From an uncultured Pseudomonadota bacterium (GTDB lineage: Bacteria; Pseudomonadota; Gammaproteobacteria; Ga0077536), in the NCBI GenBank assembly GCA_902551695.1, contig CACDEI010000013.1, positions 1 through 33,630 on the forward strand: DNA of 33,630 nt. Reading direction: 5' to 3'. Position 1 is the stretch's first letter; every line of letters starts with the position of its first letter. Positions 10,594-33,630 of the stretch are shown piece after piece. The notes below the pieces were generated by a model. The model had not been told where the DNA came from. It saw nothing but the letters and a program-made list of their open reading frames with translations, and made no database searches. The position numbers and the translations under genes were made by a program.

Positions 10594-11472
10594 TTAGGCT
10601 TTTACAGCCCCTGATTCAATGGCTGCGTCTCTATCCTCGGGATATTGAAATTGGGGCGATGTATCTCGCGGTTGCCGCGTATCAGAAGCTGCAGTGGAAC
10701 TAGCTTGAATTTTCCAGTCCTCAGAGCCCCAATCTAGTTCTAGTACCTCTATGTGTCCGGGCTTGTCAGCTGCTTCAAAAATCTCCAACGCTTTTGTTAG
10801 TACATCATATTGGTTGACTTCATTAAACGGTTTCCCACAACTGTGACCAAGTGGGTAGTCTAAAAAGACAGACCTCGGCGCTTGGCCAGCAAGGAGTATA
10901 TCGTGTGCAGACCCAAGACATAGTGTGGGTATGCCTCTTTCTTCAAGGTATCTCGCGACCAAACACCCGGTTTGGTGACAGACTGGTCACATGGGGACCA
11001 AAAGTGCAACATCTACTTCTTGAGATAGGAAGCGAGAATAGACATTCGGAGCAATATCCTCCAACACTTTTCTTTGGGAGTAAATTCCACCCATGCAGGA
11101 AAAAACTTGATCCGCCAACTCCCCTATTTTCCCTTCCTTTTCCATTCGAAGAAGTTGTCCTAGAGGCAAAATGCAATTCGGATCTTTTCTAGGGTTCTCA
11201 AGGTAGTTCTCCGTGATATGAGAAAACCGAATATCTTCCGTCGAACAGTTTTTCTCGATACTTCTAAGTGAGGAGTCATCTTTGTAATGGTAGGCGCTTT
11301 GACCTAGGGAATATGCCCCTGAGGTGGAAAGAAGTCCCAACCGGCATTCTTCTATTTTCTTGTATAGGGGCGTGAAAGGCGCAGGATCTTCTCCAGCATG
11401 AAACCAACGATAGGGCTGGTAACCCAGTTTGAGATAACGTTCTTTTATAGTTTTCATATAGTTCACATACAT
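10594..11472 (-). CDS. GrdB/PrdB-family selenoprotein (glycine/sarcosine/betaine/D-proline reductase selenoprotein B-like), TGA read as Sec162
   Basis: One 292-residue protein when the in-frame TGA at 10987-10989 is read as selenocysteine. Upstream: FSCMGGIY and VDVALLVPM. After the TGA: PVCHQTGCLVARYLEERGIP, then LGSAHDILLAGQAPRSVFLDYPLGHSCGKPF. This is the continuous pattern of the selenoprotein-B-like family, in which Sec sits in a UPxC motif; here Sec162 and Cys165. Family members of known function cleave C-N bonds reductively in glycine, betaine or proline; the aerobic proteobacterial branch is uncharacterised. It starts with ATG 11 nt after the cytochrome stop, with AGGA 9 nt upstream, as the last gene of the amine dehydrogenase operon. 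Ordinary gene calling would split it at the TGA. A nonsense mutation is the alternative, made unlikely by intact coding on both sides and the SECIS-like hairpin. Confidence 0.87.
10958..10976 (-). promoter_or_regulatory. bacterial SECIS-like hairpin
   Basis: On the minus strand, ACCAAAC and GTTTGGT form a perfect 7-bp stem around the loop CGGGT. The stem begins 10 nt, and the loop 17 nt, after the TGA at 10987-10989. As I recall them, bacterial SECIS rules ask for an apical loop about 16-37 nt after the UGA with a G among its first two bases; here the second loop base is G. It should recruit SelB to insert selenocysteine. No sel genes lie in the window. Confidence 0.8.
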
Positions 11473-11483
11473 AGCTTATAATC

Positions 11484-11924
11484 CTAAGGCCGAACATAGT
11501 CAGGTAGTACTATACCTTTTCCTTGGAGGGAGGTCAGGAGCTTCCTCCGGTTAGCATGAAGGTCTGCCGGCCTATTTTCCCTAAGCTCTTTGACTTCCTC
11601 TTCCGTATAAGGCTTGAATTCTTTAGTTAATTGTAGACTGCTGAATTCTCGGAGTACCCAATTCATTAGTGCTGCAACCTCATCATTCTGTAGTGGCGCT
11701 TGAGATATGTCGGCGACCTGAATTAGGTATTCTCGCCCATTAGACACCTTAGTGAAGTGGCCGATTATATTTCTGATGTCTGGAACCAGGTTAGAGGGGC
11801 TCCCAGAGCCGTTAGGCTTGTGACAGCCGCTACAATGAATCACATAGTTCTCAGCGGGTGGGCGAGCTTCGCTTGTAGAATAAGTGAAATTACACAAAAA
11901 GAAAGCTAATATAAATTTAAACAC
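11484..11924 (-). CDS. periplasmic c-type cytochrome of the amine dehydrogenase operon
   Basis: A 146-residue protein with a signal peptide (about residues 1-20) and one heme-c motif, CSGCH, at 31-35, followed by KPNGSGSPSNLVPDIRNIIGHF. That is the ordering of small class I cytochromes. The distal Met ligand is not certain; Met87 in EVAALMNWVL is a candidate. The tail (EEVKELRENRPADLHANRRKLL) is charged and unusual. It sits 17 nt after the small-subunit gene, where Paracoccus-type clusters place the blue copper protein amicyanin. I therefore infer that it accepts electrons from the TTQ cofactor in place of, or after, a copper protein. No amicyanin or azurin gene is seen. Confidence 0.82.
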   Translation of the reverse strand: MFKFILAFFLCNFTYSTSEARPPAENYVIHCSGCHKPNGSGSPSNLVPDIRNIIGHFTKVSNGREYLIQVADISQAPLQNDEVAALMNWVLREFSSLQLTKEFKPYTEEEVKELRENRPADLHANRRKLLTSLQGKGIVLPDYVRP

Positions 11925-11941: not shown

Positions 11942-12469
11942 TTATGCCTTGTCGGAGGCCGTACCTAGAACTATGGAAACTGTGCAATGATATACTTCAG
12001 ACTCATTACCCATGCACCAATTAATATCATTGTGAAGGCCCATTCTGTAGGCTGGTTTTTCGCCGATATTTTCATTACAGTAGCAGCGCCCGCAAGATGA
12101 TACTCCGCAGCAATCGTAATAACTGACGATATAATGTTTGCCGTCTTCGGGATTTTCACAGGTACCGATCCAGCTTACCGTAGAGGCACTCGATCCTGGA
12201 GGGCAGGTGGTTATAGAGCCACCACAACACGTGCAGAGATGACCGTCCAGTGCGCAGTAACGCCAGTATTCACAACGTTGATCATCCAGCGGGTCAAAGT
12301 CCTCTGAGTCGGCGGCAGCATTGGCGGAGGACCGGTCGAAGGGAAGCACAGGAAGTACGAAAGCAGTCCCTACAAAGTATTTTGCGATGCGAGCTAGAGC
12401 ACCTCGCCTTGAGCTGTTTTGCGCTATAGAACGTGTTTTTTTCTCAAAAAAATTATCTAGCCACTCCAT
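11942..12469 (-). CDS. mauA: amine dehydrogenase small (beta) subunit, TTQ-bearing
   Basis: A 175-residue precursor of a methylamine/aralkylamine dehydrogenase light chain. It begins with a long twin-arginine-type leader (SSRRGALARIAKYF near 19-32), as MauA proteins do. The mature part holds 14 cysteines in the family's disulfide-rich pattern (CEYWRYCALDG, CTCCGGSITTCPPG, YDCCGVSSCGRCYC). The two tryptophans that form tryptophan tryptophylquinone are both present: Trp100 in SWIGTC and Trp151 in DINWCMGNE. They are 51 residues apart, the spacing of Trp57 and Trp108 in the Paracoccus enzyme. It should oxidise a primary amine to aldehyde and ammonia in the periplasm. Substrate is not decided by the sequence. 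Confidence 0.95.
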   Translation of the reverse strand: MEWLDNFFEKKTRSIAQNSSRRGALARIAKYFVGTAFVLPVLPFDRSSANAAADSEDFDPLDDQRCEYWRYCALDGHLCTCCGGSITTCPPGSSASTVSWIGTCENPEDGKHYIVSYYDCCGVSSCGRCYCNENIGEKPAYRMGLHNDINWCMGNESEVYHCTVSIVLGTASDKA

Positions 12470-12489: not shown

Positions 12490-13083
12490 CTATGACGATT
12501 TTTCCAAATAATCTTGGATCGATTCTACTTCCAATTCCCGCGCAGTGAACAAGCTTTCTAGTTGCTCTCTACTGTTGACAAGCCCTTTAGACTTAATTAC
12601 CCCGTTTTTGTCGAGAAGTAAAGCATAGGGTAGTTTCCCCACTTTAAAAGCCATGCCTAAATCGTTGGACAGGACGTAGGGAAAGTCCTTCAATTTTGCC
12701 TTTTCATAAAAAGTTCGTTGCTTTTCGAAGTCTCCATCACTGGCTAGGATGACCTTGAGCCAGTGTCCTTCCGCTTTTTGAATTGAACGCAAAACAGGGA
12801 TGAGCTTCTTGCAGACTGGGCAGTTTGGGGAGAGGAAAAATAGGAGTTCACCTTGCTCAGAGGGTTTGCCTATGTCTATCCGCCTATTGTCAAGCGTCTC
12901 TAAATTGAAGTGCGGAGATTGTTCTCCAACCGATGGGCCGTCATCCATCATTAGTGCCCCCATGGGGGCTACGCGCTCATACAAAATACCGATTTGTCTG
13001 GCTAGAGCAAACAGCGCGAAAACCATGCAGGCAACCACTAGCCACAAGACTATCAGACTGAGAACGAGTGGGTCTGTTGTCAT
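12490..13083 (-). CDS. mauD: amine dehydrogenase accessory protein MauD (thioredoxin-like)
   Basis: A 197-residue protein with an N-terminal membrane anchor (about residues 7-28) and a periplasmic thioredoxin fold. The redox motif is Cys88-Pro-Val-Cys91 in FFLSPNCPVCKKLIP, the MauD signature, with a cis-Pro region at KLPYALLLDKNG. MauD is needed for correct disulfide formation or stability of the cysteine-rich small subunit. Its start overlaps the mauE stop by 4 nt, and its stop is 20 nt before the small-subunit gene, the conserved E-D-A order. Confidence 0.93.
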   Translation of the reverse strand: MTTDPLVLSLIVLWLVVACMVFALFALARQIGILYERVAPMGALMMDDGPSVGEQSPHFNLETLDNRRIDIGKPSEQGELLFFLSPNCPVCKKLIPVLRSIQKAEGHWLKVILASDGDFEKQRTFYEKAKLKDFPYVLSNDLGMAFKVGKLPYALLLDKNGVIKSKGLVNSREQLESLFTARELEVESIQDYLEKSS

Positions 13084-13607
13084 TTTATTGCTCTCAAACG
13101 AGGAAGGTTAGTGATTAATTGACTGCTCAATACATAGAGTCCATAGAAAGTTATGCTACCAGCTGCTAGTGTGAAAAAATCGAGAGGAGCCAAGATTCTC
13201 GATGATCCTGCAAAGAAAACAGATGTTAGGCCTGTTATCAAGATTAAGTTTCTAGTTACAAGTGCCCACGAAATTGGTTGCTCATCTTCAATTCCACCGC
13301 AACCGCAACCTATATCTGTATTTCCTCTCAAAAGATTGATAACCACCGCTAGAGTGACTATTGATAGGAGTGTTGATCCAAGTATCGCTCCGAGTAACAA
13401 AGTCCTTTCCATCAGTAGCAAAGTCGCCGCTACACCTTCGGCCAAGACAATCGCATAAGCTGAGTATTTTAAACCGGGCGTCGGAATGAGCTCGTAAGCT
13501 TCTAGCGAGATTTGGAATGTCTCCATCTCCTTAATTTTCTGCCAAAACCCGACAATGAAAATTATAGCTACCGCTGTAGTTATTATTTTTGCAAATAGGA
13601 AATCCAT
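13080..13607 (-). CDS. mauE: amine dehydrogenase accessory membrane protein MauE
   Basis: A 175-residue integral membrane protein with about four to five hydrophobic segments (residues 5-22, 48-66, 70-92, 119-135, 145-163). It carries the paired cysteines Cys101 and Cys103 in NTDIGCGCGG, next to a conserved RN pair. This is the MauE pattern, related to DoxX/VKOR-like membrane redox proteins. It most likely cooperates with MauD in disulfide chemistry on the small subunit. It starts 8 nt after the large-subunit stop and overlaps mauD by 4 nt. Confidence 0.92.
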   Translation of the reverse strand: MDFLFAKIITTAVAIIFIVGFWQKIKEMETFQISLEAYELIPTPGLKYSAYAIVLAEGVAATLLLMERTLLLGAILGSTLLSIVTLAVVINLLRGNTDIGCGCGGIEDEQPISWALVTRNLILITGLTSVFFAGSSRILAPLDFFTLAAGSITFYGLYVLSSQLITNLPRLRAIK

Positions 13608-13615
13608 GTTATGTC

Positions 13616-14764
13616 CTAATGGGTTTGAATCAAGCCGGCGAATTCTCCTACCGGCTCACTTACTGAAATGGCCTTCATTTGCGGGATAGTTTCGTATTTA
13701 TGTATTTTTGCTTCGACCCCATCATACAAATATAAATAAGGCTTTCGCTCTTTAGTTAGGGTCATAGCGATAGAATTAGCGCCCGCAATTCGTTGAATGA
13801 CTTTCTTGGTTTTTAGATCTACAGCCCAAATTTCCTCTCCAGGGTATTTGTGGGAACCTTCTTTTCCACCACTATGCATGGCTACGTATAATCTACGGGA
13901 GGTTTTGTCTACTGCGATTAATTGATAACCCCCAGGTCTCCATCCACCCTCCAGGTCTTTAACTGAACCTAATGGCCAGCTTTTCTTTAGGACAGAGGTT
14001 TCTCCTCCTACGTTGATCTCATGAATAATCCCTAGATAAGAGACGAAGTAGAAAAGATCTCCTATTCTCGCGGCTTGCACAAACAAAGGATCATCATCGG
14101 CGTTGAATAATTTTTCACTTCGACTTTGTTTGACCATTTCCCCTTTCTGGTCGTGGGTGATCGTTAAAAAAGTGCCGTCACCGCACATAGTTGAAAAACG
14201 CGCCATATTAGAAGCGGACGGTAAGATAATCCAGCATCCTGGAGTAGTCACTTCTGATGCGAACCGTTCATTCTTTCTGTCCACAATTGATATGGAGCTA
14301 GCCGGTGTCGCATTTTGGATATAGACAAAATGATCGTCTGCTGAGGGCATGATGGTGCCTACATAAGGAAGTGCCTGCGCGTGTCGGGGTGGAATGGGTA
14401 TTTCAGCCTTGAGGGTTAGGTCCTCTGTGCTATAGGCTTCAAGAAATTCGGTCTTTTCTCCTCGAGTTCCCTTGGAATAATACGCGGTTGCATTTAGCAT
14501 TTCGCTACTGTCACTTGAAAGTGCGGTGAGACCAAATAACCCAGTCCCTATTAGGCCAAGATATCTGAAATTGTCTCCGTTGAGAATATGAATCCTGCCA
14601 TCAATGACGTGTCCCAAGGCTAAATCGGTTAAGTAAATTCGATGAGGGTGAGCGGGCTCCAACTTCTCTATGCTGATAGTTTCAGGGGCTATATCTGCTA
14701 TGGCATTGCTAAAATTGAGAAAAAAACAAAGTCCTATTGCATGTACAAGCTTCTTATTACTCAT
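13616..14764 (-). CDS. mauB: amine dehydrogenase large (alpha) subunit
   Basis: A 382-residue precursor with a signal peptide (cleavage likely after NAIA near residue 23). Family signatures of the seven-bladed beta-propeller heavy chain are visible: HRIYLTDLALGHVIDGRIHI, the segment FLEAYSTEDLTLKAEIPIPP, PGCWIILPS, RRLYVAMHSGGKEGSHKYPG with GEEIWAVDL, and a closing LYLYDGVEAKIHKYE. It forms the alpha2beta2 dehydrogenase with the TTQ subunit. Length agrees with MauB/AauB proteins. It is the first gene of the six-gene operon. The usual mauF, mauG, mauC, mauJ, mauM and mauN neighbours are not beside it. Confidence 0.93.
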   Translation of the reverse strand: MSNKKLVHAIGLCFFLNFSNAIADIAPETISIEKLEPAHPHRIYLTDLALGHVIDGRIHILNGDNFRYLGLIGTGLFGLTALSSDSSEMLNATAYYSKGTRGEKTEFLEAYSTEDLTLKAEIPIPPRHAQALPYVGTIMPSADDHFVYIQNATPASSISIVDRKNERFASEVTTPGCWIILPSASNMARFSTMCGDGTFLTITHDQKGEMVKQSRSEKLFNADDDPLFVQAARIGDLFYFVSYLGIIHEINVGGETSVLKKSWPLGSVKDLEGGWRPGGYQLIAVDKTSRRLYVAMHSGGKEGSHKYPGEEIWAVDLKTKKVIQRIAGANSIAMTLTKERKPYLYLYDGVEAKIHKYETIPQMKAISVSEPVGEFAGLIQTH

Positions 14765-22159: not shown

Positions 22160-23083
22160 ATGGGAATTCCTATCGAGTTTGGAACAGCTTTCCGCTCCCC
22201 TTTCGAAATCGCCGATTCTGCAAAATATATAGAGAAACTAGGTTTTGATATTTTGGGTTGTGGTGAGCATGTGAGTTTTCACGGGGATACGGCAAACGCA
22301 TTTATCTCACTATCGGTAGCAGCGGGAGTCACCTCAAAGATTAAATTAATGAGTACTATAACCTTGGTCCCATTGTACCCTGCTGCTCTACTGGCCAAAA
22401 TGGGGGCGGCACTTGATGTAGCGTCTGAAGGAAGGTTTATTTGCGGTGTTGGCGTAGGCGGCGAATATCCCCCTGAATTTGAAGCCTGCGGAGTGCCGGT
22501 AAAAGAACGCGGTTCAAGAACCGACGAAGCTTTGGAGATCGTTCAGAGACTTTGGAGTTCTAAAAATGTGACGTACAAAGGCAAGTACGCTGATCTCAAC
22601 AATATAAGTATGAAACCCATGCCGATTCAGAAACCACGTCCCCCCATTTGGGTTTCTGGTAGAAAAGATGTTGCGATGAAAAGAGCTGCAAAGTTTGCCG
22701 ATGGTTGGTTGCCTTATATGTATACCCCGGAACAGATGGCCCAGAGTGTTGAGAAGATAAAACGATTTGGCGAAGAATTAGGTAAAGATATGAGCGGCTT
22801 TCGGTATGGACTATACATTTTTACGGCGGTTCATGATGATAACGATACGGCGATAAAGATGGCCTCCGATCGCCTTTCGATTCAATATAACCAAGATTTT
22901 AGTAAAATAGTGCATAAATACGCCTTAGCGGGAGATCCTGACCGATGTATCCAACGACTTAAAGAGTATATTGATGCTGGGGCAAGTTTCGTTTTTGTAT
23001 CTTCCGCTTGTCCTGACGACTACATCGCTGAAAATTTGGAGAGAATTGCCCACTCTGTTATCCCGGCTTTTCGTCCTGAATAG
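22160..23083 (+). CDS. LLM-class flavin/F420-type oxidoreductase (TIGR03619-like)
   Basis: A 307-residue luciferase-like TIM-barrel protein. GFDILGCGEHVSFH, KIKLMSTITLVPLYPAALLAKMGAALD, SEGRFICGVGVGGEYPPEFEACG and RPPIWVSGRKDVAMKRAAKFADGWLPYM are the classic blocks of the F420-type subfamily annotated TIGR03619. Real F420 use is unproven: F420 is uncommon in gammaproteobacteria, and FMN is the alternative. GAGGAGG lies upstream of the ATG at a slightly long distance. Its 3' end overlaps the opposite-strand MFS gene by 26 nt (23058-23083). Confidence 0.87.
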   Translation: MGIPIEFGTAFRSPFEIADSAKYIEKLGFDILGCGEHVSFHGDTANAFISLSVAAGVTSKIKLMSTITLVPLYPAALLAKMGAALDVASEGRFICGVGVGGEYPPEFEACGVPVKERGSRTDEALEIVQRLWSSKNVTYKGKYADLNNISMKPMPIQKPRPPIWVSGRKDVAMKRAAKFADGWLPYMYTPEQMAQSVEKIKRFGEELGKDMSGFRYGLYIFTAVHDDNDTAIKMASDRLSIQYNQDFSKIVHKYALAGDPDRCIQRLKEYIDAGASFVFVSSACPDDYIAENLERIAHSVIPAFRPE

Positions 23084-24370: not shown

Positions 24371-25513
24371 TTATTTCGTTTCTAGAAGGTGCTCGTATCT
24401 TTTATCAGTTAGAATTTTCAAAAAGGCTATTAGAGAATCAACTTTTGACGAGTCTAAAGGTTGGCCTAAAGTTAAAAGGGCGTCATTTATATTATCGGAA
24501 CTTTCAGGATTGCCCCAGTACTCCTGGGTTTCGGGGTTGGTTAACGCAGACTCGTTCTTTATCAAATGAAAATTATAGAATAGCAGTGTAGTTCTTAGTT
24601 CTTGAAAGATGCCATTATGCATATACGGGGAAGTGACAGCTACGTTTCTCAGAGTTGGTGTTTTAAATTTACCGCTGTTCTCGGAATTGGAGAAACTAGG
24701 GTTTTCTTCTAAACCTCTATCGTTATAGGATGGGCCTCGAAGTTCCTCTCTTGCGAGCACTTGGTTCCGAGGCACCCCGATATTGTGATATCTAAGGTCT
24801 GTGAAGGGTTCTTCTTTGCTTAAAGTTCCTTTATTTAATAGATGACAATTCATACAATTAGAGACATCAGAGAAGAAAATATTGAAGCCTCTCTCTTCTT
24901 GTTTTGACATGGTATAGGAACCCGCTAAAAATTTGTCATATTTGGAGTCAAAGGCAGAAAACGCTTTTGACCTCTCAAATGCTGCGATAGAGGTTTGCAC
25001 AGCGTTGAGCAGTACGTCAGGATTTTCTAAGGCTTTTTGACCAAATATCTGAGTGATCATTTCTTTCACCTTACTATCTCCTTTTAATCGGTTGAATAGC
25101 ATCAACTCATTTGATAATCCCATTTCGTTCTCATCGAAAAGAGGATGTAGAATCTGCTCCTCGAAGTTGTTTACTCTTCCATCGAAAAAAAGTCCGCCAA
25201 TGGGACCAGTGCTGTCGGATATTAGCGGAGGGGTTAGTAAGGTGTATGTAAGGGTAGGGGTGTTTCTTCTTCCTAAACTATTTTTCATAGTACCAGAAGA
25301 TATGGCACCTTCTGCCGCATTTTTTCTTGGGTCAGTAAAAGCGTTTTCAGGGTTATGACAAGTGGCACAGGCTACGTTACGATTTTTAGAAAGATTTGTG
25401 TTGGAAAAAAGATCTTTTCCTAATTCGATGAGCAGGGTGTTATCTCCCCAAGCTACAGTACAATGAAATAGGTATAGACATAAGATGAATGTGTGTGAGA
25501 TAGGACGAGCCAT
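24371..25513 (-). CDS. MauG-like di-heme cytochrome c / peroxidase family protein
   Basis: A 380-residue periplasmic protein with a signal peptide (about 1-23) and two heme-c sites, CATCH at 49-53 and CMNCH at 220-224. RRNTPTLTYTLLTP, GGLFFDGR, AFERSKAFSAFDSKYDKFL, RYHNIGVP and TPTLRNVAVTSPYMHNG follow MauG closely. Tyr313 in LLFYNFH falls where bacterial peroxidases have the distal Met and MauG has Tyr294, so it looks MauG-like rather than a classic peroxidase. Two MauG tryptophans appear replaced, by Phe110 in the FFDGR motif and by Ser218 two residues before heme 2. It could complete the TTQ of the amine dehydrogenase about 10 kb away, or act on something else. Confidence 0.8.
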   Translation of the reverse strand: MARPISHTFILCLYLFHCTVAWGDNTLLIELGKDLFSNTNLSKNRNVACATCHNPENAFTDPRKNAAEGAISSGTMKNSLGRRNTPTLTYTLLTPPLISDSTGPIGGLFFDGRVNNFEEQILHPLFDENEMGLSNELMLFNRLKGDSKVKEMITQIFGQKALENPDVLLNAVQTSIAAFERSKAFSAFDSKYDKFLAGSYTMSKQEERGFNIFFSDVSNCMNCHLLNKGTLSKEEPFTDLRYHNIGVPRNQVLAREELRGPSYNDRGLEENPSFSNSENSGKFKTPTLRNVAVTSPYMHNGIFQELRTTLLFYNFHLIKNESALTNPETQEYWGNPESSDNINDALLTLGQPLDSSKVDSLIAFLKILTDKRYEHLLETK

Positions 25514-30508: not shown

Positions 30509-31549
30509 TTACTTCCTAAAGGCAGGTAAAACATTTCTCGCAAAGATATCCATACTCTTTCGTATAAGGTTTGGAGCCAGTCCAGGTAAAGCCATTTGCA
30601 TAACCATGTGAGTAAATCGTCCTCTGCTGACGTAGTCGGCTATCATTTCCTTGGCATCATCGGGTGTCCCCACTATCGCGTCCTCCCCAAAAAAATTAAA
30701 AGCCTCGGCTTTAATCATTTCATCAACGGTAGGGAGTCCTTCCAGTGCCTTGTCATCACCTTCTTTATCGTTAGCTTCGGCGAACCATTTTCCATAACAT
30801 TCCGTAAGATAATGCAAATGTTGAGCACACTCTTCCCAAGCTTGAGAACGACTTTGAGCCACATAGACAGCTCTCATAGTCGCAATATTGTATTCTTGGG
30901 GATTTCTCCCAGCGGCTGTAAGCGCTCCGTCGTAAGCAGCATTAAGCTCTGTTGGTCCGACGCTTTGGAAATGAAAGCCCATTTTTGCGGCTCTTTCAAT
31001 GGCTTTCGGCGCTATAGCACCAAGCCATATGGGTGGGTGTGGCCTTTGAAGAGCAGGCGGGGATATCTGGATATCGTTTAAATAGTAATATTTTCCGTCT
31101 ATTGTCACGGATTCTCCACTCAGAAGTTTTTGTACTATTGCCATTCCCTCTTGAAGTCTGCCACCACGTTCGGTGTGCGATATTCCTTGGTCAGAAAATT
31201 CTTTGCGTCGATAACCGAGGCCTACGCCTAGATCAAATCGGCCGTTAGACATGAGGTCAACGGTCGCAGTATCTTCGGCTAGGCGAACGGGGTTGTGGAG
31301 AGGAGCTAAAACTAGAAATGTGCCGATTCTCATGCGTGTTGTGCGTTGAGACACGGCGGCAGCTATCGGTAGCAGGGATGGTGAGTATCCATCGTCAACG
31401 AAATGATGCTCCGTGAGCCAAGCGTCGTCAAACCCCATTGCTTCGGAATCTGCTATAAGATCAAGGTGTGATTTATATAAGTGCTCCCATGGTACTTTGT
31501 TGTGGCTTGGGTTTCTGAAAGGCCAGAGCACGCCAAATCTTAAATTCAT
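30509..31549 (-). CDS. LLM-class luciferase-like monooxygenase
   Basis: A 346-residue luciferase-like protein with the standard flavin-monooxygenase blocks: GFDDAWLTEHHFVDDGYSPSLLP, RMRIGTFLVLAPLHNPVRLAED, NGRFDLGVGLGYRRKEF and RPHPPIWLGAIAPKAIERAAKMG. The EHHF motif is typical of FMNH2-dependent bacterial luciferase alpha-like enzymes. It could perform a Baeyer-Villiger or hydroxylation step; no partner flavin reductase is adjacent. GGGGAG precedes the ATG. It is upstream of the P450 on the same strand, separated by the strong hairpin at 30466-30497. Confidence 0.9.
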   Translation of the reverse strand: MNLRFGVLWPFRNPSHNKVPWEHLYKSHLDLIADSEAMGFDDAWLTEHHFVDDGYSPSLLPIAAAVSQRTTRMRIGTFLVLAPLHNPVRLAEDTATVDLMSNGRFDLGVGLGYRRKEFSDQGISHTERGGRLQEGMAIVQKLLSGESVTIDGKYYYLNDIQISPPALQRPHPPIWLGAIAPKAIERAAKMGFHFQSVGPTELNAAYDGALTAAGRNPQEYNIATMRAVYVAQSRSQAWEECAQHLHYLTECYGKWFAEANDKEGDDKALEGLPTVDEMIKAEAFNFFGEDAIVGTPDDAKEMIADYVSRGRFTHMVMQMALPGLAPNLIRKSMDIFARNVLPAFRK

Positions 31550-32652: not shown

Positions 32653-33630
32653 TTGAAAATCCTTATAAACATTCTGACTCGTTATCCTAAACTTATTGGG
32701 GCGGTTTCCGTATCTTTGCTCCTAGTGTCGTTCTTTATCGTTTTTTCGGGCCCAGATCTTAGTCTTGGTGTCCGCGTCGATCCCTCCATCAAATCTTTGT
32801 TGCCAAATAGTGGAGAAGAAATAGAATTCCTCGAAAATATTGAGGAACTATTCTCAAGTGATGACTTGCTTTTAGTAACTTGGGTCGGCGAAGACCTTTT
32901 TTTGCCGTCTCATCTTGAAGAGTTCAAGGCTTTGAGTCGTAAAATAGAGCAAATACCAGGAGTCGAAGATGTTGAAAGTTTAGCTACAGCGATTCGCACT
33001 AAAGTATTTGAGGACTATACGGAAGTTAATCCCTATCTGGCGGAGTTGCCAAAAACTAAAGAACAGGCTACCGAGATAAGGGATGCAATCGTCAAAAACC
33101 CTTTGTACAAGGGCTACCTGGTGTCTGACGATGGAACTGGACTAATGATATCCGTACGGTTCAAAAGGAACCTTACAGCTCAAGAGCTAATTAAAAAGGT
33201 ATCACTTATTAATCAGTATTCAGAGCAATCTGCTTCTGGTATCGAACAGTTTCTTTCTGGCCCTCTATTTGTGCGATTAGAAATTAGCCGCTTATTACTC
33301 GAAGATTTATATCGTGTGATGCCTTTGGCAGTGTTGGTAACTTTGGCCGTTTTGGCGTTAGGTTTTCGAAACATGAGGGGAGTATTTCTTCCTTTTTTAT
33401 CGAACACTCTGGCTCTTGGTTTAACTTTCTCTATTTTCATCTTGAATGGTAACCTATTGAATTATGTAACCGTTATTCTTCCACCTACAATCTATGTGGT
33501 CGGTTTTGCTTATTCAGTGCATGTGATGAGTGATTATGAAAGATATTTTCACTCTCAAATTTCAGTCATAGAAGCTGTAAAGAAAGCTCTTGACGATGTT
33601 TTAGTCCCTGTCTCCCTGACTGCAATAACG
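32653..33630 (+). CDS. MMPL/RND-family transporter, N-terminal part
   Basis: An open frame of 326 codons runs to the window end without a stop. The likely start is TTG at 32653 with TAGG about 6 nt before it; an in-frame TAG at 32644 rules out an earlier start, and the ATG at 32640 is in another frame. The first membrane segment is near residues 14-34. A periplasmic porter domain follows (SLLPNSGEEIEFLENIEELFSSDDLLLVTW region), then TM segments from about residue 221, and the conserved GFAYSVHVMSDYERYF with EAVKKALDDVLVPVSLTAIT. It moves a hydrophobic compound using the proton gradient. It is truncated only by the window edge. Confidence 0.9.
   Translation, partial: MKILINILTRYPKLIGAVSVSLLLVSFFIVFSGPDLSLGVRVDPSIKSLLPNSGEEIEFLENIEELFSSDDLLLVTWVGEDLFLPSHLEEFKALSRKIEQIPGVEDVESLATAIRTKVFEDYTEVNPYLAELPKTKEQATEIRDAIVKNPLYKGYLVSDDGTGLMISVRFKRNLTAQELIKKVSLINQYSEQSASGIEQFLSGPLFVRLEISRLLLEDLYRVMPLAVLVTLAVLALGFRNMRGVFLPFLSNTLALGLTFSIFILNGNLLNYVTVILPPTIYVVGFAYSVHVMSDYERYFHSQISVIEAVKKALDDVLVPVSLTAIT

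Follow-up and report, generated by a model that had tools for sequence, protein, structure and literature searches.

The locus considered here raises the question of whether a 292-codon frame interrupted by a TGA encodes a single selenoprotein of the GrdB/PrdB type and, if so, what such a protein does in a genome that lacks the usual partner subunits. It lies on the minus strand of a 33,630-nucleotide stretch of DNA, which was analysed as a whole and is referred to as the window (Table 1). There is indeed one frame, as originally predicted, running from 11472 to 10594, and the TGA at codon 162 (10989–10987) is its only in-frame stop. The expectation that automatic annotation would yield two fragments also held, and a standard ORF finder reports 11472–10987 and 10962–10594. 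These fragments are what might suggest a pseudogene or a sequencing error, with the TGA representing a nonsense mutation, but the gene is under purifying selection both 5’ of the TGA (dN 0.026, dS 0.349) and 3’ of it (dN 0.038, dS 0.294), and the low dN/dS in the second segment argues against loss of function. The window was also checked for further frames interrupted by TGA, and the single candidate examined closely (32682–32999, minus strand) runs antisense to a longer frame and gives no hit in Pfam.

Table 1. Features of the selenoprotein locus and the adjoining amine dehydrogenase genes, in window coordinates.
Feature	Coordinates	Strand	Remarks
GrdB/PrdB-like selenoprotein gene (predicted)	10594..11472	-	292 codons plus stop; Sec at codon 162
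UGA codon 162, predicted to be read as Sec; UPVC motif	10987..10989	-	TGA in 29/29 full-length orthologues; Cys codon in alphaproteobacterial homologues
Bacterial SECIS-type hairpin	10955..10979	-	7-bp stem, 10976-10970 with 10964-10958; loop CGGGU, 10969-10965
Lower stem of hairpin, 2 bp	10979-10978 with 10956-10955	-	Below a single mismatch
Small c-type cytochrome-like protein	11484..11924	-	One CxxCH; weak, sub-threshold hit to Pfam Cytochrom_C
TTQ amine dehydrogenase light chain, MauA/AauB type	11942..12469	-	PF02975, 6.6e-51
MauD accessory protein	12490..13083	-	TIGR02661, 195.4 bits, above cut-off 188.6
MauE accessory protein	13080..13607	-	PF07291, 8e-23
Amine dehydrogenase heavy chain, MauB type	13616..14764	-	PF06433, 4.7e-32

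A search of 36 genomes from the same bacterial family as the window's genome identifies full-length orthologues in 29 of them, representing eight genera and ranging from 54% to 93% identity, and in every one of these a single TGA interrupts the frame, always at the aligned codon. In a thirtieth match (G049) a contig end truncates the gene ahead of the Sec site, and it is not included in the 29. Because independent assemblies retain the TGA at identities as low as 54%, a read error in which TGC or TGG is the true codon is ruled out. The same conservation refutes the pseudogene or error reading, to which, with the selection noted above and the SECIS covariation described below, we attach almost no probability. 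Among 96 further homologous loci the column contains TGA in 88 and TGC or TGT in eight, with no other codon, and the homologues with neither Cys nor Sec at this position that would have counted against the original prediction were found neither here nor among the orthologues. The 96 loci include clostridial GrdB, whose known Sec (TSTUGTCTRCG) aligns exactly with the codon 162 column. The four closest Cys homologues are alphaproteobacterial (L024–L027, 44–51% identical), and all have Cys in place of Sec and have lost the downstream hairpin.

The hairpin 3’ of the TGA has the letters ACCAAAC / CGGGU / GUUUGGU, and the perfect 7-bp stem and 5-nt CGGGU loop described originally are both present; the spacing given for it of 17 nt after the UGA is however that of the start of the loop, and the stem itself starts at 10 nt. 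Bacterial SECIS elements have an apical loop approximately 16–37 nt downstream of the UGA, with G as its first or second base, and the geometry here fits this rule. The folding energy of the single sequence is unremarkable (z = -0.83), and the case for the hairpin therefore rests on comparison. A hairpin of at least 6 bp whose loop has G at its first or second position is found 3’ of the TGA in 25 of the 29 orthologues, and the frequency by the same criterion at other codon positions in these genes is 4.1%. In the 23 distinct orthologue sequences compared, 98.6% of the stem cells are paired, and pairing is abolished by shifting the stem partners by 1–3 nt. Two stem pairs have compensatory changes (A-U to G-C and C-G to U-A), and there are 12 double-sided stem changes versus 4.3 expected in shuffles, with none of 500 shuffles reaching 12. 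The loop sequences observed are CGUGU, CGUGA and CGGGU. At codons 165–172, synonymous-codon identity where the amino acid is the same is 0.78 versus a gene mean of 0.43, the maximum among 8-codon windows. An Rfam search of the window gave no match.

The genes for selenocysteine insertion, on which the original prediction depended, are all present in the window's genome: selA (563.4 bits), selB (376.9 bits) and selD (272.6 bits) each score above the curated cut-off, selC (65.8 bits) is likewise above its cut-off, and selA, selB and selC are together on one contig. An alternative genetic code in which TGA is read as tryptophan would explain the open frame only, and is refuted by the Cys homologues, since Cys but never Trp occurs in the column, by the use of TGA as a stop in seven of the 32 neighbouring window genes, and by the presence of selC; its probability is effectively nil. 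Conservation of the column, SECIS covariation and the sel genes all support the predicted translation of the UGA as Sec162 and, judged from sequence, codon 162 is a selenocysteine codon.

Assignment to the GrdB/PrdB family with a UPVC motif is also correct, and is supported by both Pfam and NCBIfam profiles. The match to PF07355 (Pfam GRDB) is marginally above the gathering score (23.7 bits versus 22), and the best NCBIfam match is to TIGR04483, PrdB (E 7.6e-32, residues 31–246), a profile that is matched by 47 of 47 aligned family members. By these profiles the protein is a member of the GrdB/PrdB selenoprotein superfamily, and its best match being PrdB and its Sec column being shared with GrdB are both consistent with it being a genuine PrdB subunit of D-proline reductase (or a GrdB) in a Stickland-type complex. 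However, its TIGR04483 score of 110.6 bits is below the equivalog cut-off of 300, a conserved C-terminal extension of about 45 residues past residue 246 lies outside the PrdB model, and by NCBI cut-offs it qualifies as neither PrdB nor GrdB. Moreover, none of the 36 family genomes contains the pyruvoyl-subunit family PF09338, to which GrdE and PrdA belong, and the same search finds it in control genomes (three Clostridium and two Endozoicomonas-type). The window's genome (1.43 Mb) is itself 72% complete, and near-complete relatives also lack PF09338, as do both of the Cys-form alphaproteobacterial genomes included in the search. GrdA is absent from the ten family genomes searched and present in three clostridial controls, while COX1 is present in the window's genome and in five of six relatives searched. 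Because PF09338 and GrdA are absent and COX1 is present, the protein appears to operate without the classical partners in genomes equipped for oxygen respiration, and we consider a role as a PrdB or GrdB subunit very unlikely. An AlphaFold model of the selenoprotein is confident (pLDDT 93.8), but Foldseek comparison of the model with the PDB reveals no similar structure at E≤0.001 and a PDB sequence search finds no homologue, so the active site cannot be read by analogy with a solved structure.

The window's genome encodes a second selenoprotein of the same superfamily (L139:7872–8720, G000:C22), about 30% identical and with a UPDCC motif, near which there are luciferase-like monooxygenase genes. 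Five paralogues (L179, L181, L183, L184 and L185) have a (U/C)PLDH motif with Asp in place of the resolving Cys of UxxC, and their Sec must therefore function differently; L183 contains two in-frame TGAs. One locus (L023, CAMAXW010000043.1) is in a record titled as a Klebsiella pneumoniae MAG, although its contig matches G013 of the window's family and the record is probably mislabelled. Within the window there are also three luciferase-like (LLM class) monooxygenase genes (727–1713, 22160–23083 and 30509–31549), as well as a P450, two MFS transporters and several SDRs.

Upstream of the selenoprotein gene, and separated from it by 11 nt, is the cytochrome-like gene, preceded by a set of amine dehydrogenase genes (Table 1). 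In the PDB the light chain best matches the beta chain of aromatic amine dehydrogenase, and it retains both tryptophans in TTQ-type contexts. The locus thus contains a light chain with both tryptophans, a heavy chain, MauE and MauD, as expected of a TTQ operon. For MauG, which serves in TTQ maturation, the candidate is a MauG-like di-haem cytochrome (24371–25513, minus strand) encoded about 10 kb from mau, which scores 84.1 bits against a cut-off of 443.85; G002, G012, G018 and G050 have similar genes on their mau contigs.

A light-chain gene with mau neighbours is present in 29 of the 36 family genomes, and the cytochrome gene is downstream of it at 28 of the 29 TTQ loci, the exception stopping at a contig edge. 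The selenoprotein gene follows the cytochrome gene, as the last gene of a mauB-E-D-A-cytochrome c series, in eight genomes of three genera (g1, g3 and g6), and in the window's genus and the two others it is probably co-transcribed with the TTQ operon. In a fourth genus (g7) the mau contig stops just past the light chain, and a second contig starts inside the cytochrome gene and continues into the selenoprotein gene; these contig ends are compatible with the same gene order but leave it unproven, and a search for an assembly overlap between the two contigs found none. The linked state takes three changes on the best tree; one gain with two losses would account for them, and the linkage may have had a single origin.

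The position of the selenoprotein gene at the end of this series, the short gap in the window and the contig ends in g7 raise the possibility that it is a functional part of an amine-oxidation system, providing a selenium-dependent redox step coupled to the TTQ amine dehydrogenase, whether in maturation, in detoxification of an aldehyde or peroxide product, or in imine reduction. However, in most other genera the orthologue sits apart from mau, and clustering of neighbouring genes identifies no linked gene in most genera, apart from mau in g1, g3 and g6. Three genomes have mau without the selenoprotein and four have the selenoprotein without mau, and in G001, from the same genus as the window, no mau genes were found but the selenoprotein gene still adjoins the dienelactone-hydrolase gene that flanks mau in the window. 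By eye, the selenoprotein has no apparent signal peptide, whereas the light chain has a Tat-like leader. Because the linkage to mau is not universal, we treat a functional tie to amine oxidation as a hypothesis, and an unlikely one; that a pyruvoyl-independent GrdB/PrdB relative is a working member of the TTQ pathway, performing a selenium-dependent step in aerobic amine oxidation, is a slightly more doubtful proposition.

The interpretation that we favour, and hold with high confidence, is that UGA 162 directs Sec insertion, that the protein has a UxxC redox pair and no pyruvoyl partner, and that its gene is at the operon end in three genera and is found elsewhere too. The product of the gene is a selenoprotein of 292 residues, cytoplasmic and belonging to the GrdB/PrdB superfamily, and at UGA 162 the downstream hairpin would recruit SelB with Sec-tRNA(Sec), so that Sec is inserted and termination avoided. 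Sec162 and Cys165 are predicted to form the UxxC redox pair. If PrdB is a guide, the selenolate of Sec162 may act as a nucleophile on an electrophilic or oxidised substrate, with Cys165 as the resolving thiol and formation of a selenenylsulfide, which could then be reduced by a cellular reductant such as a thiol or flavin system. Because the pyruvoyl subunit, to which amino-acid substrates bind in the PrdB and GrdB systems, is absent, the selenoprotein most likely acts alone or with some other partner and not as a reductase of D-proline or glycine; the most likely form is a selenol/thiol redox enzyme that acts on its own through Sec162 and Cys165, and a partner subunit unrelated to PF09338 is possible. 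As GrdB reportedly has peroxidase activity, according to the title of a paper in the reference list of the C. sticklandii study, a role as a selenol peroxidase or reductase is plausible.

Comparison with characterized systems places these features in context. In D-proline reductase the pyruvoyl group of PrdA binds the substrate; attack on the alpha carbon is attributed, as a proposed mechanism, to the Sec of PrdB (residue 152 of 242 in C. sticklandii), and resolution to a PrdB cysteine (PMC3091704). The window protein resembles the Clostridium sticklandii and C. difficile PrdB proteins (TIGR04483) throughout the region matched by the profile, and has the same order of Sec then Cys (UxxC), but its family differs in the lack of PrdA, the additional C-terminal residues, the sub-cut-off score and the oxygen-respiration genes. 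With GrdB, GrdF and GrdH (PF07355), the selenoprotein B forms of glycine, betaine and sarcosine reductases, it shares the aligned Sec column and the flanking C-terminal half, but the long N-terminal region of GrdB, a protein of 431–435 aa, is mostly missing from it, and neither GrdA nor GrdE accompanies it. The adjoining operon is similar to known methylamine and aromatic amine dehydrogenase (mau/aau) operons in having the mauB-E-D-A genes and both light-chain tryptophans, but differs in its selenoprotein gene, of which we found no description within mau/aau operons in the open-licence papers searched. The new element is thus the linkage to a TTQ amine dehydrogenase operon, and the kind of selenoprotein is itself already known.

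PrdB-type selenoproteins are among the commonest in the ocean, with 42 of the UxxC type in a Sargasso Sea survey (PMC1088965) and 235 in the GOS samples (PMC2398784). The window selenoprotein probably belongs to the same broad group as these marine ‘PrdB’ proteins, and is like them in its UxxC motif, its pfam07355 membership and its abundance in ocean bacteria. The passages of the two surveys cited here differ from the present analysis in giving family counts, and do not report an absence of partners or a link to mau; those of the Sargasso Sea paper cite the D-proline reductase role for PrdB, a reaction given to the marine proteins by homology. For the window's branch, absence of the pyruvoyl subunit in 36 genomes, together with the genes for cytochrome oxidase and amine dehydrogenase, argues against D-proline reductase, and the mau context offers a concrete genetic setting in which the function of these proteins can be tested.
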